A DNA stretch of 64,000 nt from a virus (IMGVR_UViG_3300046535_002148:1-64000); one strand, 5' to 3'; positions 17,350 to 33,409 are shown, numbered from the stretch's first letter. The notes: generated from the letters alone by a model not told the origin. Numbers and translations are program-made.

Positions 17350-17419
17350 CTTTCGCTTGCTCATCAAGCGTTTCTGTCCCGGCCCGCATCCCGCCCCAAA
17401 AATTTTTCGGAGGACCCAC

Positions 17420-18496
17420 ATGTCCGCAGAGACGATGCTCCACCTCAACACCAACGTCCTGGTCGGCAACACCGACGCCCGCGGCAACGCCTGGCACTGG
17501 CGCGCCGACCTGCAGGGCATGGAGTCCAACCACTACACCGGGGCCATCCCCGTCGCCGACGTCGTGCGCCGGCTGTTCAACTGGAAGGCCGAGTCCCGCC
17601 GGGTCGCCGTGGAGGTCCCCGCGGACTTCGACACCATGACCCACCTCAACGACAACGGCATGCCGATGCGTTGGGACGTGCAGACCGAGCGCCAGGCGAT
17701 CACCCACGGCCAGACGCACCAGACCTTCGAGCTGTTCAAGGCCGGCTACGCCATGCACCAGTACGAGGAGTGGCTGCTGCAGTACGTCTCCAACATGCTG
17801 GGCGACTCCCTCGGCGTCTCCTCCGCCGGGCTGCTCAAGGGTGGCGCGATCGCCTGGGTCGAGGTGTCGGTGCCGGACTCCATCAACACCCCGCAGGGCG
17901 TCACCTTCCGGCCGAACCTCCTGGCCACCACGAGCTTCGACGGCAGCTGCGCCACCACCTACAAGCGCACGCTCACCGACACCGTCTGCGACAACACTCG
18001 CGCCATCGCCATGTCCGAAGCCTCGCCGACCTACAAGGTCCGCCACTCCAAGGGCAGCAAGGCCAAGGTCCTCGACGCCCGCCAGGCACTGGCGATGGTG
18101 CACCAGCTCGCCGACGACTTCGCCGCCGAGATCGCTGCCGCCTGCGCCATGCAGGTCACCACGGTCGAGTTCAACCGCTTCATGGACCTGGCCGTGCCGC
18201 TGACCAAGGACGGCACGAAGCTCGAGGGTCGGTCCAAGACCATGGCCGACAACAAGCGCGACCAGATGCTCACCCTGTGGCGCAACGACAAGCGCGTCGC
18301 TCCGTGGGCAGGCACCGCGCACGGTGTCATCCAGATGGTCAACACCTGGGCCCACCACGACCAGACGGTCCGCAACGCCACCCGCGCCGAGCGCAACCAG
18401 CTCAACACCATCGGCAACGAGTGGGAGAACCTGGACCGCGAGACGTGGTCGCAGCTGCAGCAGGCCATGGCCGGCGCCACCGCGGTCGCCGCATGA
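17420..18496 (+). CDS. DUF932 (phage/plasmid-like) protein
   Basis: ATG at 17420 follows CGGAGG. The 358-residue protein has the features of DUF932: an N-terminal WHWRADLQ region, then IPVADVVRRLFNW, YEEWLLQYVSNML, and ISSAG-type SSAGLLKGGAIAWV. A central core (RPNLLATTSFDGS, TYKRTLTDTVCDNT) and a helical C-terminus follow. The family is common on plasmids and phages and has no agreed biochemical role. It is coupled to an 80-residue protein. Confidence 0.85.
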   Translation: MSAETMLHLNTNVLVGNTDARGNAWHWRADLQGMESNHYTGAIPVADVVRRLFNWKAESRRVAVEVPADFDTMTHLNDNGMPMRWDVQTERQAITHGQTHQTFELFKAGYAMHQYEEWLLQYVSNMLGDSLGVSSAGLLKGGAIAWVEVSVPDSINTPQGVTFRPNLLATTSFDGSCATTYKRTLTDTVCDNTRAIAMSEASPTYKVRHSKGSKAKVLDARQALAMVHQLADDFAAEIAAACAMQVTTVEFNRFMDLAVPLTKDGTKLEGRSKTMADNKRDQMLTLWRNDKRVAPWAGTAHGVIQMVNTWAHHDQTVRNATRAERNQLNTIGNEWENLDRETWSQLQQAMAGATAVAA

Positions 18497-18735
18497 GCCT
18501 GGTCTGCATCGAGAAGGGCGACCCGGAGCTCGGGGATTGCACCGGGTCGCCCTCGGAGCACAGCTCCCTGACCGGCGCGAGCGTCTTCGTGCGCTGCGAC
18601 GGTCACTACGAGAAGTACGTCGAGCGCACCCAGCCCCGGCTGGACGCCGTCAACGCCCGCTATCCCGACTCGTCGTTCGCCCCGGACTGGTTCGACCCGA
18701 CCTACGCCGGCGAGCACTGGGACAGCGACTACTAG
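18493..18735 (+). CDS. Hypothetical protein, 80 aa
   Basis: ATG at 18493 overlaps the DUF932 stop. Three cysteines (about 4, 16 and 34) and an acidic Tyr/Asp-rich C-terminus. No known domain. Operon end, 13 bases before a hairpin. Confidence 0.6.
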   Translation: MSLVCIEKGDPELGDCTGSPSEHSSLTGASVFVRCDGHYEKYVERTQPRLDAVNARYPDSSFAPDWFDPTYAGEHWDSDY

Positions 18736-18748
18736 CAGCCCGTTCACC

Positions 18749-18774
18749 GAGCCCCCGGCACATGCCGGGGGCTC
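18749..18774 (+). terminator. Strong inter-operon hairpin
   Basis: A perfect 12-bp stem (18749-18760 with 18763-18774) with a 2-base loop, then TTTGCATGTC and GGAGG. It is the tightest copy of the recurring element. Confidence 0.7.
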
Positions 18775-18794
18775 TTTGCATGTCCGGAGGTCCG

Positions 18795-19475
18795 ATGTCC
18801 GTGCTCACCGACACCAAGCTGGTCGCCCAGTCGGGCAACAGCAAGACCGGCCCCATCCCCGTCACCTACCGCACCGACGCGACGTGCCCGACGACGTGCC
18901 CGCTCCTGCCCACCAACGGCGGCGGTTGCTACGCCTCCGGCCGACTGTTCGCGCTCGCCCGCAAGTGGACCGACGACATCACCTTCGAGGAGGCCGTCGC
19001 GGTACTGAACCGCGCACCCCGCAACGCCACCCTGCTGCGGGACCGTGTCGTCGGCGACCTCGTCACCGCCGACGGCGAGTTCGACTGGCAGTACATCGAG
19101 ACGATCACAGCTGCCGCCCAGGCGGTCGGGCTCAAGCCGTTCGGCTACACCCACGCCTGGCGTCTGCTCACCGCGGCCGACGTCCAGCGGATCAAGGCGC
19201 TGGGCTACGCACTCAACGCCAGCTGCGAGACCGAGCAGGACGTGCTCGATGCCACCGCGCTGGGACTGCCGACAGTCCTGGCCGGTGACAGCTGGACCGA
19301 CGGCCAGATGATCGGCGAACGACGGGTCGTCACCTGCCTGGAGACCACCCGCAACCTCAACTGCGCCGCCTGCGGACTGTGCGCCACCGACCGTGCCGCT
19401 GTCGTTCGCTTCCCCGTCCACGGCTCGGCCCGCGGCCGGGCCCGCAACACCCTGGCTGCGCTCGTCGCCGCCTGA
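18795..19475 (+). CDS. Cysteine-cluster protein, possibly DUF7227-like, 226 aa
   Basis: GGAGG at 18785-18789 selects ATG 18795; an in-frame ATG at 18780 is inside the recurring TGCATGTC motif. The protein has GNSKTGPIPVTYR, then CPTTCPL and CYA near the N-terminus, then an alpha/beta region that looks barrel-like. A C-terminal cluster reads NCAACGLCA, followed by VVRFPVHG. The cysteines suggest a metal or iron-sulfur centre. I recall phage proteins of this kind as DUF7227 (not verified). Role unknown. Confidence 0.65.
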   Translation: MSVLTDTKLVAQSGNSKTGPIPVTYRTDATCPTTCPLLPTNGGGCYASGRLFALARKWTDDITFEEAVAVLNRAPRNATLLRDRVVGDLVTADGEFDWQYIETITAAAQAVGLKPFGYTHAWRLLTAADVQRIKALGYALNASCETEQDVLDATALGLPTVLAGDSWTDGQMIGERRVVTCLETTRNLNCAACGLCATDRAAVVRFPVHGSARGRARNTLAALVAA

Positions 19476-19562: not shown

Positions 19563-20408
19563 ATGTCCGTGAGCAAAGAGGTTCCGTTCTCCATCGGTCT
19601 CGTCACCTTCAACGTCGACCTGCACTCCAGCGTCGAGAAGGACAACCGTGGCACCGGGCTGTCCAACTTCTGCATCGGCAAGCCCGGTGCCGTGCGGCAC
19701 GAGCCGCTCAAGACCGTCGCCCCGCTGCACTGCCCCGACCTGGGGTGCGGCAACGAGGACCGCAGCTCGTTCGAGAAGTTCAAGAAGCAGGGCAACGGCT
19801 GGGTCCACGTGCCCGACGGTGTCGTCATCGACGCGCAGGACACCGTGCCCACCAAGGGCGCGGGCATGCGCTTCACCGGCCACCCGACCAAGGACGTCGA
19901 CCAGCACATGATCGCCATCGACGCCCCCTACTACCTCGCCTACACCGGCGCTGCCGGTTCGGCCGGGGCCGAGGCCTACGCACTGATCGCCAACTGGGTC
20001 GGTGCGAACGGTGACGTCGCCCTGCTCACCAACTACGCCGTCCGCACCGCGCCGGCGATCTACCGACTGCTGGTGAACGACGGAGTGCTGATGCTGCAGA
20101 AGGTCTGCTTCCCCTCGGACATGCAGGCTGCGCCGATCGTCCCGACCCAGTTCAACCCCGGGTACGTGCCGATGCTCACCGAGGCGATCCGTTCCAACCT
20201 CGACGAGTTCGACCCGGCGAACTGGGCCGACACGCGACGCGCACTGATCGAGGCATACGACTCCCCCGACGCGCCGGTCACCGCCGCGGCCGACGCCCCG
20301 CTGGCACCGGTGTTCGACCTGACCGCCGCACTGGCCGCAAGCATCAAGGCACCGGCCGAGGCGAAGTCGGTGCGCAAGCGGGCGCCTCGCAAGAAGGCCG
20401 CTGCCTGA
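19563..20408 (+). CDS. ku: Ku-like DNA end-binding protein
   Basis: ATG at 19563 behind GAAGGG. The N-terminus PFSIGLVTFNVDLHSS matches the SFGLVNIPVKL start of bacterial Ku. About a third of the way in come IDAPYYLAYTGAAGSAGAEAY and then LMLQKVCFP, which align with the YYLEPDKAGAKAYALL and LVLQTLRWP regions of Ku. The last 15 residues are Lys/Arg/Ala-rich, like the DNA-binding tail of many bacterial Ku proteins. Length (281 aa) is normal. Ku binds double-strand ends and recruits a ligase. Mycobacteriophages Omega and Corndog are known to carry Ku. The next gene is an ATP-dependent ligase, which supports an end-joining role. Confidence 0.85.
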   Translation: MSVSKEVPFSIGLVTFNVDLHSSVEKDNRGTGLSNFCIGKPGAVRHEPLKTVAPLHCPDLGCGNEDRSSFEKFKKQGNGWVHVPDGVVIDAQDTVPTKGAGMRFTGHPTKDVDQHMIAIDAPYYLAYTGAAGSAGAEAYALIANWVGANGDVALLTNYAVRTAPAIYRLLVNDGVLMLQKVCFPSDMQAAPIVPTQFNPGYVPMLTEAIRSNLDEFDPANWADTRRALIEAYDSPDAPVTAAADAPLAPVFDLTAALAASIKAPAEAKSVRKRAPRKKAAA

Positions 20409-20481: not shown

Positions 20482-21423
20482 GTGGACATGATCGAGGAAA
20501 TGCTCAAGCAGAAGCCGATGCTGTGCTCGTCGCACCGCAAGCTCGGCACCGACATCGACGCCGTGATCGAACAGCTCTCCGGCAACCACCTGTTCCAGCC
20601 CAAGCTCGACGGGATGCGCTGCATCGCGATCGTCGACCATGACGACGTCGGTCTGATCAGCCGCGTCCGGGGCAACATGAGCATCCAGTACCCCGAAGTC
20701 GTTGCCGCACTGCGCAAGCTGGGCACCACGGCGGTCCTGGACGGCGAGCTCGTGCACTTCGGCGCCGACGGCAAGCCGGTCTTCAATGCGATGAGTCAGC
20801 GCAACAGCCAGCGCCACGGCGCGCGGATCGTCCGGTCGATGCACTCCCTGCCGGTCACCTACGTCGCCTTCGACATGCTGTGGGCACCCAGCGGTGACCT
20901 CCGCCGCCGGCCCCTGGAGCAGCGACTGGACGAGCTGGGGCGGTTGGGCCTGTCCGGCAAGCTGCGGACGTGCGTCACCACCGGCAACGGCGTCTGGCTG
21001 TGGCGCGAGGTCTGCGAACAGCAGCTGGAGGGACTGGTCGCGAAGAAGTCCGGCTCCCTCTACACCGGCGACCGTTCGTCGAACTGGGTGAAGATCAAGG
21101 AGGTCCACCAGGGCTCATTCATCGTCCTGGCCGTCCTGTCCACCACGACCAAGAAGGTCGGCAAGATCGAGGTCTGCGTACTCGCCGACGGACAACCCAA
21201 GTCGATGGGTGAGGTGGGCACCGGCTGGACCGACCGGACCCTCGCCGAGGTGTCCCGACGTGCCGCGCAGTACGCGGCGGCGCCGCACGACACCGCACCG
21301 GTCGTGGTCGACGTTGCCTTCACGGGGTTGTACTCCGACGGCAGGCTCAAGCACGCTGCCTTCAAGGGGATCCGCGACGACATCGACTGGCGCGACTGCA
21401 CCGATGAGCAGGAGGGGCTGTGA
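20482..21423 (+). CDS. ATP-dependent DNA ligase
   Basis: GTG at 20482 lies 9 bases after GAGGAG. The 313-residue protein has the nucleotidyltransferase motifs in order: KLDGMR with the adenylated Lys41 (motif I), RVRG (about 61), LDGELV (about 87), FDML (about 130), EGLVAKK (about 185) and WVKIK (about 203). A short OB-fold follows. No polymerase or nuclease domain of LigD type is present. The enzyme seals nicks with ATP. Adjacency to Ku suggests it seals joined ends. It overlaps the MoxR-like gene (GTGA). Confidence 0.92.
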   Translation: MDMIEEMLKQKPMLCSSHRKLGTDIDAVIEQLSGNHLFQPKLDGMRCIAIVDHDDVGLISRVRGNMSIQYPEVVAALRKLGTTAVLDGELVHFGADGKPVFNAMSQRNSQRHGARIVRSMHSLPVTYVAFDMLWAPSGDLRRRPLEQRLDELGRLGLSGKLRTCVTTGNGVWLWREVCEQQLEGLVAKKSGSLYTGDRSSNWVKIKEVHQGSFIVLAVLSTTTKKVGKIEVCVLADGQPKSMGEVGTGWTDRTLAEVSRRAAQYAAAPHDTAPVVVDVAFTGLYSDGRLKHAAFKGIRDDIDWRDCTDEQEGL

Positions 21424-22595
21424 CCGCACGTCGCAAGGACACCGCCGCTCGACTACGAACCGTCGTGGAGGAGCTTGACACGCAGTTCATCGGCCGACGT
21501 GAACACATCGTTGCCACCGTGGTCGGGTTGCTCGCCGGCGCGCATTCCTACTGGATGGGTGAGCGCGGGACCGGCAAGACCTCGCTTGCGCACGCGGTCT
21601 GTTCCAGGGTCACCGACGCCCGGTTCTTCGACTTCACCTTCGACCGTCAGATGAGCAAGGACGACGTGTTCGGTCCGACCGACATGCGTCGGGTCAACGA
21701 GGAAAACCTCTGGGTGCGCAACACCGGCAATCACCTTCCCGGTGCCCACCTGGCCCTCGGCGACGAATTGGACGAGGGCTCCACCTCGACTCTGAACGCT
21801 CTTCGCGCGCCCTTGTTGAACCGCCAGTTCTTCAATGGCGACCTCGGCATGCAGGAGATGCCGCTGATCTCCTTCATCGCCGCCTCAAACAGTTCCCTGG
21901 ACACCACCCGGTTCAACCTCGGCGCCCTTCAGGACCGCTTTCTGCTGCACCTGGTCTTCGAGCCCCTGTCGGCACCGGAAGAACTGCTGCAGCTGATGAG
22001 CGCGGTGCCGGACGCAAAGCCGGTCACGACCATCACCCTGAGGGACCTGCTGGCCGCGCAATCGGCAGCCGCCGCGGTGAAGATCCCGGTCGAGGTCGTC
22101 GAGGACGTCGTAGCTCTGTACCAGGACCTCACCGATGCCGGTGTACCGGTCTCCAACCGCCGGCTGCGTGAATGCCAGTCACTGATCCGCGCCCTGGCCT
22201 GGCTACGTGGTCGCGACCAGGCCGAGAAGCTCGACCTCGAAGTGCTGCGGCACTGCTTCTGGACCGACCCGCAGCACCGCGACGTCGTTCACCAGAAGAC
22301 CCTCGACGCGGCCGGGCTGACGGCACTGGCCGAGGCGATGAGCCTGGTCCAGTCCTGTCGCCGGCGGCTCAGCGAGCACGGCGGGTCGACCCAGGACCGC
22401 TCCCGATTGGGTTTGACCGTCCTGCGGGAACTCGACGAGCTGCGCTCTTCGTTCCAGTGGGAATCCCACTGCCAACCGCTCACGGTGGGCCTCACCCATG
22501 AGGTGTTGCGAGCCTGTCTTGATGAGGTCACAGTTATGGCACTGCGAGCCACCGGTTATGACGAGGACTCGGCACGTGAGCGTGCCTCACGGTGA
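21420..22595 (+). CDS. MoxR/RavA-type AAA ATPase
   Basis: GTG at 21420 overlaps the ligase stop. Walker A GERGTGKT (47-54) is followed by Walker B LALGDELDE (111-119). ISFIAASNSSLD is the sensor-1 strand and LGALQDRF carries the arginine-finger region, which together are typical of MoxR ATPases. Such proteins remodel other proteins with a VWA partner, and the next overlapping gene is a VWA protein. Its length (391 aa) allows a C-terminal lid and partner-binding region. It is part of the coupled ligase-to-RuvB-like operon. Confidence 0.88.
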   Translation: MTARRKDTAARLRTVVEELDTQFIGRREHIVATVVGLLAGAHSYWMGERGTGKTSLAHAVCSRVTDARFFDFTFDRQMSKDDVFGPTDMRRVNEENLWVRNTGNHLPGAHLALGDELDEGSTSTLNALRAPLLNRQFFNGDLGMQEMPLISFIAASNSSLDTTRFNLGALQDRFLLHLVFEPLSAPEELLQLMSAVPDAKPVTTITLRDLLAAQSAAAAVKIPVEVVEDVVALYQDLTDAGVPVSNRRLRECQSLIRALAWLRGRDQAEKLDLEVLRHCFWTDPQHRDVVHQKTLDAAGLTALAEAMSLVQSCRRRLSEHGGSTQDRSRLGLTVLRELDELRSSFQWESHCQPLTVGLTHEVLRACLDEVTVMALRATGYDEDSARERASR

Positions 22596-24019
22596 GTACC
22601 GTCGAAGAACTCCTGCTGCGGTTCGAGCGACTGGCCGCTCTGGCGTCGCTGTCGACCGACCTGGTGGAACGTGATCGCCTCAGCGATCGGGTTGTCCAAC
22701 GAGAGGCCGCGCGCGAACCCCTTGTCACTGCAGCGAAGGTCCGTACGGTGGCGCTGGTGAAGGACCTGTTCACAGTTTTCTGGGAACGGCAGCCGCAGCT
22801 GCGGCCCGCACACGAGGTGCGACCGGACCTGCGTGGCAATCTTCGGACGCTGTCCTACGTAGTCCGAGCACGCAATACGTACGGCCTCGCACGTTACGAC
22901 GAGTTCGAGGCGACGTTGGCGACGCTGGCGGTCCTGGAGCACCTCGACCAGCCGGTCGACATGGACGCACTGACTGCCCTCGTGGGCGGCGATGACCTGG
23001 ACGCGCTGGAGGCGGCACTGGACGCCGCGGAACAGTCCTTCGGGGACGACTCCCCAAGAGAGCTCGGGGAGGTCACCGCCGCCCTCGATGCGGCCAGGAC
23101 CCGTGCGGCCGAGGAGACGGCATTGGCGATGGCGTGGGGCTTCTCACGTTCGGAGCTGTCCAATATGAGCGTCGCGGATCGTCTGACCCTCACCAAACGA
23201 CTGTCCACCCCCGCACTGCGCAGGCTTGCCGACGAATTGGGACGTGACGTGACCAGTAACTCCGGAGCCAGCTTGGGAGTTTCGGTCACGCGATCGGGCC
23301 AGTTCAGCGACGTGGCGCCGACCTCCGAACTCGAGGACACCCTGCCGTCCCAGCGCGCCCGGTTCGGTACTACCAACCCGGTAGTTCGACTCCTGACACT
23401 GCGAGACTTCGCCGACGGCGCGCTGCTCGGGGAGGTGCGGGAGGAGCAAGTGTTCACCCGTGGCCCCGTGGTCGTCCTGGTGGACTGCAGCGAGTCCATG
23501 ACCAGCCATCACCAGGACGGACTGACCCGCGAGGCCTGGGCGAAGTCGGTGGCACTGGGCGTGCTCGGACACGCACCTGACCGCGAGGTCCACCTGGCCC
23601 TGTTCTCCGGCCCGGGTGAGTGGCGCAGCTGGCGCTTCCCCGCCGCTCCGGAGCGCCGCCGCACCGAGGACACTCTGGCGTTCGTCGAGTCGACATTCAG
23701 GGGTGGCACCGACCTGGTGGGGGCCGTCGACCGGGCGTTGGGCCTGATCGAGGAGCGAAGCTCACTCACGGAAGCGGACCTGATCGTGATGACCGATGGT
23801 CAGGTGTGTCTTCCCAGTCAGTGGGCGATCCGGGTCAATCGACGCAAGGTTGCCCTAAGATCCGCCTTCAAAGCAGTCGTGATTGGCCCCGAGACCCTGG
23901 GCGACCTCGATCAGATCTGTGACGACATCCGCACAGTCGAGGAGTTGTGCCGCCCAGGCGACACCGCCAGGGCGCTAACTGGGGAGCACCACGTGGGCGA
24001 ACAGAGTGGGGAACGCTGA
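22592..24019 (+). CDS. VWA-domain protein (ViaA/CoxE-like partner of MoxR)
   Basis: GTG at 22592 overlaps the MoxR stop. The first 280 residues are helical and Ala/Leu/Glu-rich, as in ViaA/CoxE-type proteins. The C-terminal VWA domain (about 290-475) has the MIDAS triad: Asp298-x-Ser300-x-Ser302 (VDCSESM), the later Thr in GGTDL, and the Asp in VMTDGQ. All metal-site residues are present. Such proteins guide MoxR ATPases to targets. The ATG of the next gene shares a base with its stop. Confidence 0.88.
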   Translation: MSTVEELLLRFERLAALASLSTDLVERDRLSDRVVQREAAREPLVTAAKVRTVALVKDLFTVFWERQPQLRPAHEVRPDLRGNLRTLSYVVRARNTYGLARYDEFEATLATLAVLEHLDQPVDMDALTALVGGDDLDALEAALDAAEQSFGDDSPRELGEVTAALDAARTRAAEETALAMAWGFSRSELSNMSVADRLTLTKRLSTPALRRLADELGRDVTSNSGASLGVSVTRSGQFSDVAPTSELEDTLPSQRARFGTTNPVVRLLTLRDFADGALLGEVREEQVFTRGPVVVLVDCSESMTSHHQDGLTREAWAKSVALGVLGHAPDREVHLALFSGPGEWRSWRFPAAPERRRTEDTLAFVESTFRGGTDLVGAVDRALGLIEERSSLTEADLIVMTDGQVCLPSQWAIRVNRRKVALRSAFKAVVIGPETLGDLDQICDDIRTVEELCRPGDTARALTGEHHVGEQSGER

Positions 24020-24993
24020 TGCAGGCGATCGGGTACCTGGTCCTGTTCTCCGTGCACGGCACGTCCAAGCCGGTGCGTATGGAGCTGGAGCGGGCCAGGG
24101 CGTTGTTCGACGACCTCGGCCTCGATCCGAATCACATTCCCGACAAGCTGCACCCGTTCTTCGCTTTCCAGGCGGCAAGCAGTTCCACGACGGTGGATTA
24201 TTCGAACAAGGATTGGGATTTCCAGCTCCGTGCGCAGGTCTCGCGGCGCGGTGACGAGTTCGAGGACCGTCACGTGATCCGACACGGCGTGAGCCGGCGG
24301 ACCCGTCGCCCGCAGCCGGCGTTCCTGATGTCGGTGAAGTTCTTCCACGGCGAGAAGGGTCGCGCACCCGAGGTACGCCGCACCGTGGCCGCTGAGCTCC
24401 TGGACGCCTCCAACCAGGTCATCGGTGACCTCGCCACCGAGGACCGGCGGGCAGCCAACGAGTGGTGGGCGGCGTTCAACAACCAGTACGAGGAGCTGCA
24501 GACACACCTCGCGGCCGACCAGTTGCGCACCGTAATTCGTGACTCGATCCTGGATTCCGACGGAATTCTGATCACCGCTCGCAGCGGTATGTACTTCGTT
24601 CCGGCTGAATACAACGACACGATGATCGCTCTGCGGGAATTCGTCGAGCAGATCTCCGAGGAATGTCGCCTTCATCTCATTCCTGTATTCAAGGACCCGA
24701 ATACTCTAAAACTTATCGCTGACGCCTGGCAGGACTCGGCCGAGACAAAAGGACAGCGTATTCTTTCTGAAATTCAACGAATCACCGTGAAGATGCGTAC
24801 GCAGCGCACCACCCGCGTCAAGCTGGAAACAGTCACCAAGTACCGCGTCGCCCTGGAGGACTACCAGGTGCGCATCGCCTATTACCGCGAACTGACCGGC
24901 GTCCCGACACCTGCAGGTGTCGCTGCGATCGCCCGGACCATCGACGAGGAAGTCGCCTACATGCAGACCCGGATGCCGAAGGGGCCCAAGTGA
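24019..24993 (+). CDS. Unrecognised third component of the MoxR/VWA operon, 324 aa
   Basis: ATG at 24019 shares a base with the VWA stop (TGATG). The N-terminal half is alpha/beta with a basic segment (RHGVSRRTRRPQPAF). The centre includes DGILITARSGMYFVP, and the last 110 residues are helical, basic and coiled-coil-like. It may belong to DUF6744 (recall only, not verified). AT content in parts (24.5-24.8 kb) is higher than in its neighbours. Position between VWA and RuvB-like genes makes it a candidate adaptor or substrate. Confidence 0.75.
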   Translation: MQAIGYLVLFSVHGTSKPVRMELERARALFDDLGLDPNHIPDKLHPFFAFQAASSSTTVDYSNKDWDFQLRAQVSRRGDEFEDRHVIRHGVSRRTRRPQPAFLMSVKFFHGEKGRAPEVRRTVAAELLDASNQVIGDLATEDRRAANEWWAAFNNQYEELQTHLAADQLRTVIRDSILDSDGILITARSGMYFVPAEYNDTMIALREFVEQISEECRLHLIPVFKDPNTLKLIADAWQDSAETKGQRILSEIQRITVKMRTQRTTRVKLETVTKYRVALEDYQVRIAYYRELTGVPTPAGVAAIARTIDEEVAYMQTRMPKGPK

Positions 24994-25916
24994 GCGAATA
25001 CCCCACCACCTGGGACGACTACATCGGCCAGGCCAAAGCCAAACGCGCCCTGCGGATCGCGGCCGAATCCGCTCGACTGCGCGACGTGCCCATGTGCCAC
25101 GTCCTGATCACCTGCCCCGACGGAGGTGTCGGCAAGACGGCACTGGCGACCCTGGTCGCGATGCAGTTGGGCTCCCGGCTCGAAACCATCTCCGAGCCGC
25201 CGGACCCGACAAAGTTCCGGTCCCTGATCCTGGGCATGGACGACGGTGACGTCCTGCTGATCGACGAGTTGCACCGCTTCGCCAAGGTCCAGTACCTCCA
25301 TCACCTGCTGCAGGACGGCCTCGTCACCGGCCGCGACGGCGTCCTGGAGCCGGCTCCGGCAATCACCGTGATCGGCGCGACCACCGACGTCCATGACCTG
25401 CACGACACGATCGTCGGTCGATTCCAGATGCGACTGGACCTCGAGCCGTACACCACCGAGGAGGCGGTCGACATCGCCAAGGTGATGAGTCGCCAGATCT
25501 TCGACGGCCTGCGCTTCCCCGACGACCCGTGCCTCGAAGACATCGTCGAGGCGACCAACCACAATCCCCGCGCCATCAAGCAGTTGTTGTCCACCATTCG
25601 TGACGAGGCGCTGGTCGGCGAGACGGAGTGGGAGGAGGGCTACGGCTGGGTCATCGAATCCGCGCTGGACACCTGCAACCTGCGTCGCGACGGCCTGCGC
25701 GACGAGCACCTCGCCTACTTGCTGCTGCTCAAGCGCATGAACGGCCAGGCCGGACTGGTCAACCTGGCCAAGCAGCTCGGCGGCAAGAAGGCGGTCGAGA
25801 AGATCGAGCGGCTGCTCTTTGCCCGCGATCTTGTCGAGCCGACATCCAGTGGGCGGCAGCTCACCGCCGACGGTCGGGACCGAGTCCGACACGAATCCGA
25901 CACCCTGGCCGCTTAG
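24990..25916 (+). CDS. RuvB-like AAA ATPase
   Basis: GTG at 24990 overlaps the preceding stop. The sequence has YIGQAKAKRAL near the start, Walker A PDGGVGKT (43-50), Walker B LLIDELH (89-95) and sensor 1 GATTD (129-133). VGRFQMRL carries the arginine finger (about 144), and a C-terminal winged-helix-like region ends SGRQLTADGRDRVR. This order and the DELH box match RuvB, the branch-migration motor. At 308 residues it is slightly short. No RuvA or RuvC is visible, so it may act with another partner. Confidence 0.85.
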   Translation: MSEYPTTWDDYIGQAKAKRALRIAAESARLRDVPMCHVLITCPDGGVGKTALATLVAMQLGSRLETISEPPDPTKFRSLILGMDDGDVLLIDELHRFAKVQYLHHLLQDGLVTGRDGVLEPAPAITVIGATTDVHDLHDTIVGRFQMRLDLEPYTTEEAVDIAKVMSRQIFDGLRFPDDPCLEDIVEATNHNPRAIKQLLSTIRDEALVGETEWEEGYGWVIESALDTCNLRRDGLRDEHLAYLLLLKRMNGQAGLVNLAKQLGGKKAVEKIERLLFARDLVEPTSSGRQLTADGRDRVRHESDTLAA

Positions 25917-26519: not shown

Positions 26520-27113
26520 CTACACCGGGATGGGCACTTCCGGCGTGCACGGGCGCGCCCGGTCGGCCAGCTCCCCCACCATCCGGAAGTCCTGCCGCAG
26601 GACGCGCTGCATCGCGCTGTCGCGCAGACCCTGGGCCGGGTGGAACAGCGGCAGGAACGTGCGTCGGCCGCGGTGGAAGGGCCGGCCGTGCACCGAGTTG
26701 ATGCGGACGTTCGGGACGAACGCCTGGGCAGCGGTGCGACCGCACAACAGAATCAGTGCGGGGTCGACGATCTCGATCTCCTGGTGCAGGTACACCCGGG
26801 AGGCGCGGACCTCCGCATCCGACGGCGCACGACCACCGGGCGGCTGGAACTTCAGGACATTGGTCAGGAAGACGTCGCCGCGGGTCATCCCGACATCGGC
26901 CAGCAGCTGCTCGAGCGAACGGCCGGACGCACCGACGAACGGCCGGCGCTGGTGGTCCTCATCCGCGCCGGGGGCCTCGCCGATCACCATCACCTTGGCG
27001 TCGCACGGACCCTCGCCCGGCACGAAGGACGCCCGGGTCGAGAGATGGACGAACCGGGGGTTGGCGATCAGGTGGCTGTAGAGGTAGCGCAGTGCTTGGG
27101 TCTTGTCCTGCAT
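26520..27113 (-). CDS. Uracil-DNA glycosylase, family 4/5-like
   Basis: ATG at 27113 behind GGAGGAGAAGG. The sequence has GEAPGADED and PFVG (motif 1), TNVLKFQPPGG, a CGRTAAQAF strand and FHPAQGL (motif 2), as in family 4/5 glycosylases that excise uracil from DNA. The N-terminal CxxC that normally starts the iron-sulfur site is missing, and only two cysteines remain. An earlier in-frame ATG at 27131 is possible but is inside the SD. Confidence 0.85.
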   Translation of the reverse strand: MQDKTQALRYLYSHLIANPRFVHLSTRASFVPGEGPCDAKVMVIGEAPGADEDHQRRPFVGASGRSLEQLLADVGMTRGDVFLTNVLKFQPPGGRAPSDAEVRASRVYLHQEIEIVDPALILLCGRTAAQAFVPNVRINSVHGRPFHRGRRTFLPLFHPAQGLRDSAMQRVLRQDFRMVGELADRARPCTPEVPIPV

Positions 27114-27156
27114 TCCGTCCTTCTCCTCCATGCGGTGAACTGACTGGCTGTCAGAT

Positions 27157-27474
27157 CTACTGCCGTGACCAGCGCCGCAACTGCATCGCGGTGACACCGG
27201 GGCGGTGCACCACTTCCTGCAGCAGGGGGCGCCACATGCGGGCGTGCGGGCCGTGCGCGAGCTGGAGATGGCAGTCGTGCCACGGGGACCACCCGAGGCT
27301 GACCAGGTTCTCCACGACGTGCAGGCCCCCTTGACTCCGGAACTCAATGTGGTGCAGACAGACGTTCTCGTCATGGCGTCCGCACAGCCGGCACTTGAGG
27401 CCGTCCCTCTCGTGCACGAGCTCGCGGATCGCCTTCGGGACCGCCCGGGTCTCCTCATCCCCCCGGGGTGTCAA
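27157..27474 (-). CDS. HNH endonuclease, 105 aa
   Basis: TTG at 27474, overlapping the end of the upstream gene. CRLC (about 29-32) and HHIEF (about 41-45) followed by WHDCH form an HNH fold with a zinc site. The sequence fits free-standing HNH nucleases used in packaging or homing. With the terminase outside the window its role is unclear. Confidence 0.75.
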   Translation of the reverse strand: MTPRGDEETRAVPKAIRELVHERDGLKCRLCGRHDENVCLHHIEFRSQGGLHVVENLVSLGWSPWHDCHLQLAHGPHARMWRPLLQEVVHRPGVTAMQLRRWSRQ

Positions 27475-29114: not shown

Positions 29115-29266
29115 GACGCGTGCGCCATCAGAGCCTCACGGATGAAGTCGTCCATCTTCTGGCCACGCTCGTGGGCAGCACCGAGGCAGTACTCGTAGTC
29201 CGCGCGGTCCATCTCGATCTGACTGACCGTCACCGTGGTCGAGGTGCGGAGATTGACGATGGTCAT
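29108..29266 (-). CDS. Hypothetical small protein, RHH-like, 52 aa
   Basis: ATG at 29266 overlaps the helicase stop. The strand-helix-helix pattern TTVTVSQIEMDRADYEYCLG then MDDFIREALMAH suggests a ribbon-helix-helix DNA-binding fold. This is a visual match only. Its position after the helicase suits a regulator or helicase partner. Confidence 0.5.
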   Translation of the reverse strand: MTIVNLRTSTTVTVSQIEMDRADYEYCLGAAHERGQKMDDFIREALMAHASW

Positions 29267-32200
29267 TTGGGACCTCCCATCCGAAGTTGCTTGGGCGCGG
29301 TCTCCTGGCGACGCAGGTCGTCCCAGGAGTGGCCGCGGAACTGCAGGAAGTTGTGCTGCTGCGCCTTCTTGGCGTGGGTGGTGTTGTCGTCGACCAGGGC
29401 CAGGGTCAACAGATCCATCTGCAGGCTGGCCACGGTGCCGACACCGCCGTGGCGTGACTTGAGCACCTGCATGCGGACCTTGCCGGTGGGCTGGGCGACA
29501 CCGTCGACCTGCTGGGCGTCGTCCGGCCGGAACACCGCGATGACGAAGTCCGCGGTCTCCTCCACCGCACCGGAGTCCCGCATGGAGTCCAGGTCGACGG
29601 GGCGACCCGCCTCGACGCCACGGTTGACCTGGGTGGGTGCGATGACGACCAGGCGGTGCGACTTCGCCTCCGCCTTGAGCTGCATCACCGCGTTGGTGGT
29701 CTTCTCGTAGGGCGAGCCGCCCTTCTGGCCGCGGGCGTAGTACCCGAGGTAGTCGATGAAGGCGATCTCGGGGACGGCGCCCTTTTCGATCGTGTACTCC
29801 TCGACGAGGGCCTTGAAGTCCCTCTCGCCGAGACGGTTCTCCTCGCAGATCATCAGCCGGTCGAATGCCGCAGCGATGTCCTCGTCCTTGGCTTCCGGGT
29901 ACCAGAACAGGTAGATCCGCTCGAGCCGGAGGATGATCTCCTCCTTGGTCATCTCGAGGGTGATGAAGAGGACCCGGCGGTGCAGCAGGTGCATGGCCAG
30001 GTTGCACAACACGAGCGTTTTTCCGGTGTTGTGGACGACGAAGCCGTTGGCCAGGAAGTTGTGGGGCTCGTCGGCCACCTCCAGGTCGTAGGTCTCCTCC
30101 AGGCCGAACGGTTCAATCGAGATCACGCGCTCAGTTACGACTCGTAGCTGGACGTTGCCCGTCGTGCCTTCCTCGGCGTGCAGTGCCGCGTGCTGCTCGT
30201 GCGTCAGCAACGCGAGGTTGCTGATCTCGTTGTTCTTCTCGTCGTGGTCGATGTGGTGCACCGCCCAGACGTCGGGATCGAAGAACTTGAAAGACGCCGC
30301 CTCCTCGGGACACAGGCGCAGCACCGTCAGGAAGTCCGACAGCGTGACGCCGTTGTGGTGTGCCTCGTAGACCAGGCGGTGCAGCGGGACGGAGTTGCCG
30401 CCGGCCCTGACGTTGCGGCGGTTGCGGTACGGGTGGTGGATCAGCCCGGACCGGTAGAAGTAGTGCTTGCCCTTCTTCTGTCGCCCGGCCGCACCACGGT
30501 GGCCGCGGACGTGGACCTCGTCGTCGACCTTGAGCTCGTCGAGTCGCAGCCACCCGCGCTCGGTGAGGAACGGGTGCTCGTCGGTCGCCCGGATGGTTCG
30601 GCCGGTCTCGGTGGTGACGGTGTAGGTCTGCTTGACGCCGCTGCGCCAGGCATCGACCAGGCGCCCGAGCCGGATCTTGCCCTCGACCTCGCGCTGCACG
30701 TAGGTCGGGATGGACCGGTTCCACTTCCTGCCGCCGCCCGGGGCCCCGCCGTTGAAGCGGTGGACCAGGTCAGCCAGCTTGATCGTGAACCCCTTACCGG
30801 CCCGATTGACGGCGATCTCCGCGTCGCCCTGGATGCAGCCAGTCTTTGCGGCCAGCACGAGCAGCTGGCCCGGCAGCATGCCGGGCTCGAGGACGGCGTC
30901 GATCTGCTTGTAGCCGAGCTTGATGCCGTGCGGGTTCTCGGCCTTGTACGCGCGGTAGGAGGCCAGGGACTCGGCCACGGTGTAGAGCCGGCGCCCTGAG
31001 CTGGACAGGAGCAGACGCTGGACGTCCTGCCAGGTGTGCCCGGCATGCGGATGCTCACGACGCCACCCGTCGTTGGCGTCGGCGGGGATCGGCAACAGGT
31101 ACGCCGACCAGTCGCACTTGGGCAGTTCCTCAGGCAGGGTGACGATCCGCGCCCGGCTGCCGAGCTTGTCCTTGATCCCCTGGGCGGCGCGCTTGCCGGC
31201 GTCGTCGGGGTCCAGCGCGATGTAGATGCGCTTGACGTCCTCGAAGAACGGGATCCATTCCTCGGCGAAGGTGCCGGTGCCGGGGATGGCGACCACGGCG
31301 GCGTTACGCAGGCGCAGGTCCGGGCAGGTGGCGAGGTGCTGACGCAGCACCATGGCGTCGAACTCGCCCTCGGTGATGATGGCGTCCTCGGCACCGGACA
31401 GCTCGTCGCGGCCGAAGAGGTCCGCCCCCATGCTGGGACTGGTCCAGTACTTCCCGCCCTTGAAGCCGTCCTCGGGCCAGATCCGACCGCGGATCTGCGA
31501 CACCGAGGAGCGGTGGGTGTAGGGGATGAGCAGGTGGCGGAAGAAGAACTCCTTGGTCCGCCCGTCCTTCTCCTGCATGAGGCCAGCCGTGCGCAACTGC
31601 TCGTCGGTGTACTGGCCGGGGATGCCGTTGGCCAGCGACCACCCGTTCCCGACCCAGCCGAGCTTGCGCTCGATGACGGTCTCCGGGGACAGGCCCCGCT
31701 CGTCCATGAGGTAGGTGAGCAGATCGTCGTTGTTGGCGAGCATCTGCATGCCCAGCTCGGTGGCCTCCTCGAGGATCTTGCGGCGCGAGCCGTCGTACTC
31801 GACCTTGCCGGGCCTGGGGTCGTCCCCGAAGTGCTCCTGCAGCAGGTAGGTCCCACCGCGTGAGTCGCAGACCTTGCAGTTTCCGGTGAGGATGTTGTCC
31901 TCGAGGGCGAAGGTCTCGGTGCCCGGGACGATCGCGCAGTAGACGGTCTCGGTTCGGGACGTCGGGCAAACGTCGGTGACACGCCAACGGACCTTCGTCG
32001 CGTGCCCCCCGACCTGCTCGTTGAACCGGGCACGGTGCGCATTCCGCAGGAAGAAGTCAGGCCACAGAGTGGTGCCGTGAAGCTGCACCCGCATGACCTC
32101 GTGCGCGGGCGCGATCTTGCTGGCCTTCATCAGGTAGGTCGAGATCGGGCCGGTCACGATGCCGAGCCGATTGGCGATGTCACGCACGCACTGCAGTGCG

Positions 32201-32961
32201 GCTGGGTCCGTCGAGTCGATCGCGAACGAGGTGCGGTTGACGGTGCCGTCGGTGGCGAAGTACCCCATCAGCCAGCCGAGCAGGTCGGAGTCCGACCAGG
32301 TTTCCAGGTCCGGCAGCTGCTTCCATGCTGGGTCGAGTCCGTTGACCCGGATGCCCTGCACCCCGCCAGCGGTCGGTTCGAGGTCGACAACGGTGCCATA
32401 GGACTCGAAGTGGCGCAGGAGTTCCTGCTTCTCCCCCCACAGAGCGACGTGATGTCCGGAACCGTCGCCGAAGTACACGCCTCGCGCGATGCACCGGCTC
32501 GACGCGACCCGGTGCTGCTCGGCGATGACGGCGTCGAGCTTGGCTCCCACGCGCAGGTCGCGCGTCAGCACCTCGTACCCGTCGACGATCCAGCGGTGCT
32601 GGTCCGTGGCGTACAGGATCTTCTCGCGACGGTTGCGGGTCAGCTTGATCGCCCAGAGGCGCTGACGGCCGAAGTCACGAATCTTCGCGTGAACCCATTG
32701 GCCACCCGACGTCAGGAGTTCGGCTTCCTGGTCCGCGACATCAGCGATCCGTCGAGTGCCTCCACGCGTGATGACGCCGGTGTCGCCGGCGAGGCAGTGG
32801 TAGTAGCCGTCCTCGACGGAGACGTAAAGCTTCAATTTCCTGGAGCCGGCGTCCTCGCCGCAGCCGATGAAACAAGGCATCGCAATCTCGCGACCACCGG
32901 ACACCGACTTGCCATGAAAGCCCTTGCTGGAAAGGTAAGCGACGACATCGAGATCACTCAC
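29263..32961 (-). CDS. Primase-helicase (T7 gp4-like) precursor with two inteins
   Basis: GTG at 32961 (or 32964) gives 1232 residues before splicing. The mature protein would have three parts. An N-terminal zinc finger (CFIGC ... YHCKVC) comes first. A TOPRIM domain follows (IITEGEFDAM, then YIALDPDDAG). A DnaB/RecA-type helicase with Walker A KTGTGKT, FIDYLGYY and a C-terminal KSRHGG loop completes it. The two inteins (306 and 270 residues) interrupt the zinc finger and the Walker A loop, so splicing is needed for activity. Mature length is about 656 residues, normal for the family. It makes primers and unwinds DNA at the phage fork. Confidence 0.9.
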   Translation of the reverse strand: MSDLDVVAYLSSKGFHGKSVSGGREIAMPCFIGCGEDAGSRKLKLYVSVEDGYYHCLAGDTGVITRGGTRRIADVADQEAELLTSGGQWVHAKIRDFGRQRLWAIKLTRNRREKILYATDQHRWIVDGYEVLTRDLRVGAKLDAVIAEQHRVASSRCIARGVYFGDGSGHHVALWGEKQELLRHFESYGTVVDLEPTAGGVQGIRVNGLDPAWKQLPDLETWSDSDLLGWLMGYFATDGTVNRTSFAIDSTDPAALQCVRDIANRLGIVTGPISTYLMKASKIAPAHEVMRVQLHGTTLWPDFFLRNAHRARFNEQVGGHATKVRWRVTDVCPTSRTETVYCAIVPGTETFALEDNILTGNCKVCDSRGGTYLLQEHFGDDPRPGKVEYDGSRRKILEEATELGMQMLANNDDLLTYLMDERGLSPETVIERKLGWVGNGWSLANGIPGQYTDEQLRTAGLMQEKDGRTKEFFFRHLLIPYTHRSSVSQIRGRIWPEDGFKGGKYWTSPSMGADLFGRDELSGAEDAIITEGEFDAMVLRQHLATCPDLRLRNAAVVAIPGTGTFAEEWIPFFEDVKRIYIALDPDDAGKRAAQGIKDKLGSRARIVTLPEELPKCDWSAYLLPIPADANDGWRREHPHAGHTWQDVQRLLLSSSGRRLYTVAESLASYRAYKAENPHGIKLGYKQIDAVLEPGMLPGQLLVLAAKTGCIQGDAEIAVNRAGKGFTIKLADLVHRFNGGAPGGGRKWNRSIPTYVQREVEGKIRLGRLVDAWRSGVKQTYTVTTETGRTIRATDEHPFLTERGWLRLDELKVDDEVHVRGHRGAAGRQKKGKHYFYRSGLIHHPYRNRRNVRAGGNSVPLHRLVYEAHHNGVTLSDFLTVLRLCPEEAASFKFFDPDVWAVHHIDHDEKNNEISNLALLTHEQHAALHAEEGTTGNVQLRVVTERVISIEPFGLEETYDLEVADEPHNFLANGFVVHNTGKTLVLCNLAMHLLHRRVLFITLEMTKEEIILRLERIYLFWYPEAKDEDIAAAFDRLMICEENRLGERDFKALVEEYTIEKGAVPEIAFIDYLGYYARGQKGGSPYEKTTNAVMQLKAEAKSHRLVVIAPTQVNRGVEAGRPVDLDSMRDSGAVEETADFVIAVFRPDDAQQVDGVAQPTGKVRMQVLKSRHGGVGTVASLQMDLLTLALVDDNTTHAKKAQQHNFLQFRGHSWDDLRRQETAPKQLRMGGPK
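30028..30837 (-). mobile_element. Intein 2 (HNH type) in helicase Walker A
   Basis: 270 residues from Cys1 (CIQGDAEI) to VVHN, followed by Thr+1. Removal restores KTG-TGKT, the Walker A loop. Block B is TDEHPFL. An HNH endonuclease core (VHHIDHDEKNNEISNL) lies near residues 190-210. The C-terminal splice block is NFLANGFVVHN. Confidence 0.9.
31879..32796 (-). mobile_element. Intein 1 (LAGLIDADG type) in primase zinc finger
   Basis: 306 residues from Cys1 (CLAGDTGV) to the terminal Asn (LTGN), followed by Cys+1. Removal joins YYH to CKVC, restoring a zinc finger. Blocks for LAGLIDADG homing endonuclease are visible (ARGVYFGDGSG and GWLMGYFATDGT). Penultimate residue is Gly rather than His, which is found in some active inteins. 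Confidence 0.88.
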
Positions 32962-33409
32962 CACGCCACCCCCGGACCACGGCAACCGCTTCGGCCTCAG
33001 TTGCACAGTTCTTCCGCATGACGGCCCCGTCGTTCATCCACGCCGCCTTCCAGGCGCCATTGATGCGGTCGAAGCTGACACCGCGATACTCCGACGTCGA
33101 AGCGTCTCGATGGCCGATCTGGTTCTGCATGTTCCGCTGATGCGTCACCACCAGCAGGTTCGAGCGGCGGTTGTCGAGCTTGTTGCGGTTGTCGTGGTCG
33201 ACCACACGGCGGTCGCCGGGCTGCAAGCCGCAGATGTCGCGGTGCAGATAGCCTCCAGGCGCCTCGTGACCCCGGCGACGCACCGGATTGCGCATGACGT
33301 AGCCGTTCTTGCCCACGAACCACCGATGCGTGACGAACAGCGCGACGTCCTCGTCGTCGACGAGCACGATGTGCGGCACATCCTTCCGCCACACGACGAA
33401 CTCAGGCAC
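32954..33409 (-). CDS. HNH-AP2 homing endonuclease-like protein
   Basis: GTG at 33409 is placed 4 bases after GGAGGAGG; a double ATG at 33454 is a weaker alternative. The protein has VVDHDNRNKLDNRRSNL, an HNH-type core. An AP2-like DNA-binding segment follows (EYRGVSFDRINGAWKAAW). This arrangement is typical of free-standing homing endonucleases. It overlaps the start of the intein-bearing helicase gene. Confidence 0.82.
   Translation of the reverse strand: MPEFVVWRKDVPHIVLVDDEDVALFVTHRWFVGKNGYVMRNPVRRRGHEAPGGYLHRDICGLQPGDRRVVDHDNRNKLDNRRSNLLVVTHQRNMQNQIGHRDASTSEYRGVSFDRINGAWKAAWMNDGAVMRKNCATEAEAVAVVRGWRGE

Follow-up and report, generated by a model that had tools for sequence, protein, structure and literature searches.

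The window analyzed here is a stretch of DNA that covers nucleotides 1–64,000 of a virus record in IMG/VR with a length of 134,639 bp. Its encoded proteins include one of 2,654 aa that matches tail families, another tail protein, the large subunit of a terminase, and a primase–helicase, and on these grounds we regarded the window as belonging to a tailed phage. The locus of interest is a run of five genes on the plus strand, in the order ligase, MoxR, VWA, DUF6744, and RuvB-like, and a Ku-like gene that an earlier note on this DNA had left outside its boundaries sits 73 bp upstream of the ligase (Table 1). Those tail, terminase, and replication genes of the window that could be identified are on the minus strand. 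The earlier note had described five ORFs with overlaps at all four junctions, and an ORF check reproduced each of them exactly. The sequence GTGA is shared at the ligase–MoxR junction (MoxR start, 21420; ligase end, 21423), the MoxR–VWA junction (VWA start, 22592; MoxR end, 22595), and the DUF6744–RuvB-like junction (RuvB-like start, 24990; DUF6744 end, 24993), and TGATG, with the ATG at 24019, is found at the VWA–DUF6744 junction. For the DUF6744 ORF, the ORF tool also listed a longer alternative with a GTG start at 23947. Of the 119 same-strand junctions of the genome, 26 (22%) could have an overlap of 1 or 4 bp; four in succession are unusual (about 0.2% per starting point) and constitute modest evidence of a unit, which alone is no proof. 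From these overlaps, we infer that the genes are transcribed as a single operon.

Table 1. Genes of the cassette and neighboring features in the window (positions counted from its first nucleotide).
Feature	Coordinates	Strand	Length (aa)	Profile matches (E-value)
DUF932 gene, then DUF7227 gene	17357–19475	+		
Ku-like protein	19563–20408	+	281	TIGR02772 2.7e-9 (under cut-off); phrog_4873 8.6e-7
ATP-dependent DNA ligase	20482–21423	+		PF01068 9.5e-24; PF04679 1.1e-8; TIGR02779 7.9e-50
MoxR-clade AAA+ ATPase	21420–22595	+	391	PF20030 1.5e-27; PF17868 1.1e-14
VWA protein	22592–24019	+	475	PF13519 8.1e-9
DUF6744 protein	24019–24993	+	324	PF20529 1.9e-9
RuvB-like AAA+ ATPase with winged helix	24990–25916	+		PF05496 6.1e-20; PF05491 7.7e-8
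Uracil-DNA-glycosylase superfamily domain	26520–27458	−		PF03167 1.3e-30
Small ORF overlapping the preceding gene	27157–27474			
Primase–DnaB-type helicase ORF	29263–33006	−	1247	

The MoxR protein belongs to the bpMoxR family and carries an AAA lid (PF20030, 96.5 bits against a cut-off of 27). Its ATPase site is intact, with Walker A K53, Walker B D115–E116, sensor-1 N157, R173, and R247/R248, and the key ATPase residues are invariant in an alignment of 40 sequences. The consensus P-loop of the MoxR proteins that occur with VWA and DUF6744 (hereafter, the triad) is GPPGTAKS, and that of the window itself reads GTGKT. The VWA protein has a complete MIDAS (D298, S300, S302, T373, and D402, in an alignment of 39), and its predicted model (pLDDT 78) consists of a helical N-terminal half and a C-terminal VWA domain with matches to VWA folds.

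As judged from its sequence, the fourth gene, listed as unknown in the earlier note, is a divergent member of the DUF6744 family: it scores 37.3 bits against a gathering score of 27, and the sibling loci have DUF6744 at the same position. The predicted model is confident (pLDDT 90.4, pTM 0.84) and is laid out as a beta-rich domain, a small alpha/beta domain, and C-terminal helices. A fold search of this model against the PDB returned no significant match (best E-value, 0.034), and the only models it matched were four viral ones, none of known function, including one from the haloarchaeal tailed virus HVTV-1. In a family alignment of 49 sequences, the window protein lacks several conserved residues (E89, D92, R186, and P187), and its function may have drifted. 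Because no obvious catalytic set was found and these conserved residues are lost, a role as an adaptor or substrate appears likelier than that of an enzyme. The protein has no net positive charge and thus gives no hint of direct DNA binding. Among open-license papers, we found none that names DUF6744.

The genes on either side of the triad were assigned with varying firmness. The ligase contains KLDG, conforming to KxDG, and its adenylation and C-terminal domains exceed the Pfam cut-offs. It most resembles the ligase domain of LigD, an end-joining enzyme, and although TIGR02779 is its top match, its score (169.8 bits) is under the cut-off of that NHEJ ligase equivalog (227.75 bits). The Ku-like protein scores below the curated cut-offs, with 16.2 bits for PF02735 (E-value 0.01; cut-off, 25) and 36.9 bits for TIGR02772 (cut-off, 150), but its assignment is supported by the E-values for TIGR02772 (2.7e-9) and phrog_4873 (8.6e-7). 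The P-loop and winged-helix domains of the RuvB-like protein score above the Pfam cut-offs, and the whole protein is below the RuvB equivalog cut-off (120 vs. 282).

No relatives emerged when annotated phages were searched at the DNA level with the operon region, and scanning viral contigs with the window MoxR and DUF6744 as single proteins also found none. Since the window proteins were too divergent for these searches, we used profiles built from plasmid and other phage homologues. When DUF6744 alone was used to search genomes from 84,980 species of bacteria and archaea, 49 loci were detected, 41 of which also had MoxR and VWA nearby. The other eight were mostly on short contigs or at contig ends; four of them retained VWA and one retained MoxR. 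In viral contigs, the same search detected five loci, each of which also has MoxR and VWA; in one of them (L014) the MoxR–VWA pair lies about 7 kb from DUF6744. Conversely, searching the viral contigs, which are uncultivated and mostly incomplete, with MoxR only gave 80 loci (62 non-redundant), and VWA was found in all 62 and DUF6744 in 40, some of the phage DUF6744 matches being weak (26–60 bits). A shuffled-ORF control of this search gave no matches. Furthermore, the trees of the three triad proteins correlate in their patristic distances (Mantel r 0.78–0.84, reached in none of 999 permutations), a correlation that also owes part to shared host phylogeny.

When the neighbors at 54 loci were clustered, only the three triad families recurred in nearly all of them. 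In Nocardia and Streptomyces plasmids the order is that of the window, MoxR–VWA–DUF6744, and plasmids of Brevibacillus, Alicyclobacillus, and Pseudanabaena, together with the Moorella phage MTATph1, have the order DUF6744–MoxR–VWA. The plasmid triads occur among conjugation or replication genes, including dnaN, SSB, and helicase genes, with no virion genes nearby. The neighbors of phage triads include genes for a PD-(D/E)XK nuclease, SNF2 helicase, ligase, DNA polymerase A, dCTP deaminase, and nucleotide enzymes, but this association is partly expected, as almost any early region of a phage is rich in such genes. Some Paenibacillus triads, located on chromosomal contigs of large size, have RHS and GmrSD-type genes as neighbors rather than replication genes. 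A GmrSD_N-type gene family was observed near VWA in the Paenibacillus-type loci L015, L018, L021, L024, L025, and L029, several of which also have RHS toxin genes. The core triad occurs on plasmids and chromosomes unaccompanied by the ligase or the RuvB-like gene, and Ku and RuvB-like genes are missing from most triads.

A larger arrangement was found in a subset of the viral contigs. In two of them (L126 and L128), the order Ku–ligase–MoxR–VWA–DUF6744–RuvB-like is identical to that of the window at 21–35% protein identity, and in L126 these six are the only ones to find a match among the 39 called plus-strand genes of the left arm of the window. Conservation at this level of identity amid unrecognizable neighbors indicates that the six genes are held together by selection. 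In L089, Ku, ligase, MoxR, VWA, and DUF6744 follow in order and the RuvB-like gene lies upstream; as in L126 and L128, the Ku-like homologue is immediately upstream of the ligase. In the contig group G004, DUF6744–RuvB-like is followed by ligase–MoxR–VWA, the whole spanning about 11 kb, and L087 and L125 keep the five non-Ku genes with looser spacing, no Ku being found near them. The RuvB-like gene was detected in 5 of the 50 triad-related viral contigs searched, and all five carry the terminase of the window phage. This divergent terminase is common to the window, L014/L078-L085 (G004), L125 (G034), L087, L089, L126, and L128; the window and G004 versions are about 42% identical, and contigs of this group reach 163 kb. 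With G004 and the window included, there are seven long contigs that share the terminase, and all of them have the five non-Ku genes. No DUF6744 was found in shorter contigs with the same terminase, as would be expected if these are fragments. The shared divergent terminase suggests an undescribed phage lineage.

These results indicate that the triad is general and that the six-gene cassette is lineage-specific, with the RuvB-like gene a member of this cassette outside the core triad; the link of Ku and the RuvB-like gene to the triad may be particular to one lineage. We regard the gene run as a real unit chiefly because the neighborhood is conserved elsewhere, the overlaps alone being weaker evidence. 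The proposal in the earlier note of a multi-gene unit rather than a random run is thus borne out by the recurrence of the six-gene order in divergent phages, and the neighborhood analysis, which it had named as the test that could refute the proposal, gave no sign of random association. The conserved order, for which it had proposed a comparison across actinobacteriophages, was found in the uncultivated viral contigs; the actinobacteriophages in the annotated collection did not show it. An assignment of the ligase and RuvB-like genes as unrelated passengers, drawn from bacterial and mixed loci, was dropped when the phage neighborhoods proved to keep them with the triad.

Several further features were observed around the cassette. 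The DUF932 gene of the window, which precedes the DUF7227 gene upstream of Ku, has a match with 50% identity in L089. Just past the other end of the cassette is the gene with the uracil-DNA-glycosylase superfamily domain, and the small ORF that overlaps it is kept in L126 and G004. The primase–DnaB-type helicase ORF appears to hold two intein-like insertions, one of which has an HNH match and splits Walker A (AAKTG/C...VVHN/TGKT).

MoxR ATPases are ring-forming remodeling proteins. By analogy with its family, the MoxR protein of the triad would form an ATP-driven ring, and the VWA protein would be its MIDAS-bearing co-chaperone, binding through the MIDAS as ViaA does for RavA. DUF6744 would be a dedicated third subunit, either an adaptor or a dedicated substrate. 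We infer that the three proteins form a complex that remodels in an ATP-driven manner and that its substrate is a DNA complex. The module would act on a protein–DNA assembly of the mobile element at the replication or end-joining stage, not in virion building, and would most likely load, open, or clear protein complexes where the phage DNA ends or forks. In the window phage, the Ku–ligase pair would seal the ends and the RuvB-like motor would move the DNA; the gene order suggests that the triad serves the Ku–ligase pair. On balance, we lean toward a self-contained, mobile AAA+ remodeling module of the replication or end-joining stage, which in this lineage is combined with the Ku–ligase pair and the RuvB-like motor. 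Of the DNA end-processing or packaging machine suggested in the earlier note, the link to DNA ends is plausible, Ku and ligase being kept beside the module, but the evolutionary core comprises only MoxR–VWA–DUF6744, and packaging is without support.

Among the alternatives, a role in counter-defense or inter-element conflict, in which the module disarms host defenses or competitors in the manner of the proposed MoxR–vWA ternary conflict systems, seems unlikely to us; the earlier note had also raised it, as an anti-defense complex. The MoxR protein does belong to the Pfam family named for such systems, and GmrSD, AbiTii, RadC, and RHS toxin genes are near the triad in some loci, but there was no PADLOC match of weight, and the variation in effector domains that marks conflict systems (PMC7159879) was not seen. 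Nor did the Pfam scan of the window proteins (E ≤ 1) reveal VMAP, inactive STAND (iSTAND), or FtsH, apart from a weak nSTAND6 match (0.099) to the P-loop region of MoxR, or a beta-propeller on VWA or bpX partners; bpX0/bpX1 were detected in a Hymenobacter plasmid locus used as a positive control for the beta-propeller type. We consider it distinctly improbable that the triad is a virion-assembly chaperone, with MoxR–VWA folding or maturing part of the tail or capsid, as in the Acidianus two-tailed virus (ATV). In ATV, the MoxR protein p618 binds virion proteins as well as the VWA protein p892 (PMC4124505), the same role is proposed for the MoxR–vWA pairs of jumbo phages (PMC7824862), and the MoxR proteins of ATV and SMV1 are detectable as relatives. 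However, virion genes are absent around the plasmid triads, the window triad adjoins Ku and ligase on the strand opposite the structural genes, and DUF6744 is not mentioned for ATV or jumbo phages in the available portions of these sources. The neighbors in phages and plasmids and the strand of the operon favor DNA metabolism over particle building.

Ordinary phage gene packing, in which independent early genes became adjacent by chance in one lineage, is favored by the frequency with which same-strand junctions in this genome can overlap (22%), and by the restriction of the RuvB-like gene, within the sets searched, to terminase-sharing contigs. It is nonetheless very improbable: for the triad, it is contradicted by recurrence in unrelated replicons in both gene orders, and the six genes stay in order while the remaining arm is unrecognizable. 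A cobaltochelatase-like (CobS–CobT) function that raises cobalamin for nucleotide synthesis is hardly credible. It draws on halovirus HCTV-5, where a DUF6744 gene occurs in the same genome as genes for a CobS-like ATPase and a VWA protein, such pairs in its virus family being called CobST (PMC8651126), but neither the window proteins nor the 25 families listed for 72 triad MoxR/VWA proteins include a CobS or CobT family, and with the profile of the triad MoxR, the ATPase of the halovirus reaches only 2.7 bits. HCTV-5 is a lead rather than a test, because its ATPase is outside the triad clade. In this genome (loci L086 and L010), DUF6744 is gp30, the CobS-like ATPase is gp62, annotated as porphyrin biosynthesis, and the VWA protein is gp60, elsewhere in the genome.

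The best reading of these data is that the triad is a RavA–ViaA-like AAA+ remodeler with a new third subunit that serves complexes of DNA replication or end joining; virion assembly and cobalt chelation are poor fits. More tentatively, and with considerable doubt, the triad could be a dedicated remodeler of DNA ends or replication complexes of mobile elements and a fifth type of MoxR–VWA ternary system with an adaptor of new fold, and Ku, ligase, the triad, and the RuvB-like protein could make up one end-joining machine. If so, virus-borne "CobS–CobT" pairs that co-occur with DUF6744 would be remodelers, not vitamin enzymes. The results also raise a question about related ATPase–VWA pairs encoded by viruses, which have been read as cobalamin enzymes. 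MoxR–VWA pairs are widespread but few of their substrates are known, and a fixed third gene offers a handle on what they act on; a guess about the target of the triad, open to testing, comes from its linkage to Ku and ligase. DUF6744, so far a name without a role, gains a stable functional context. No published description of the triad as a system was found in the open-license literature.

Among known systems, RavA–ViaA is the closest, and the remodeling analogy drawn in the earlier note was well chosen. RavA is the nearest solved relative of the triad MoxR profile (3.2e-90, over residues 6–332 of about 498); the AAA+ core and lid are homologous, the Walker A/B and sensor residues are present, the VWA gene with its intact MIDAS is directly downstream of MoxR, and RavA and ViaA are the top NCBIfam matches of the two proteins. 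However, the window MoxR lacks the C-terminal LARA region of RavA and scores 93.5 bits against an equivalog cut-off of 681, and the window VWA protein scores 43.6 against 500 bits, in the VWA domain only. The triad also adds DUF6744 and rides mobile elements beside DNA genes. It would work in the manner of RavA–ViaA without being a member of that system, having no LARA and falling under the cut-offs. With the known MoxR–vWA ternary systems (VMAP, iSTAND, FtsH, and beta-propeller; PMC7159879), it shares MoxR, VWA, and a third conserved protein, the bpMoxR family, and a consensus P-loop resembling a variant noted there, from which the P-loop of the window differs; its third component is none of the four described, and no effector domains were seen. 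The ATV p618–p892 and jumbo-phage pairs likewise combine a virus-encoded MoxR with a VWA partner, but virion assembly is proposed for them, and the jumbo-phage VWA is fused to a metallopeptidase (PMC7824862). In Bacillus phage 0305phi8-36, the MoxR gene is clustered with a linked second MoxR-chaperonin subunit, and the available part of that report recognizes no third subunit (PMC2147016). Finally, the Ku of mycobacteriophage Corndog is a phage Ku thought to support circularization by end joining (PMC4351075), whereas in the window phage Ku is joined, within one gene run, by a LigD-type ligase of the phage's own and the MoxR module.
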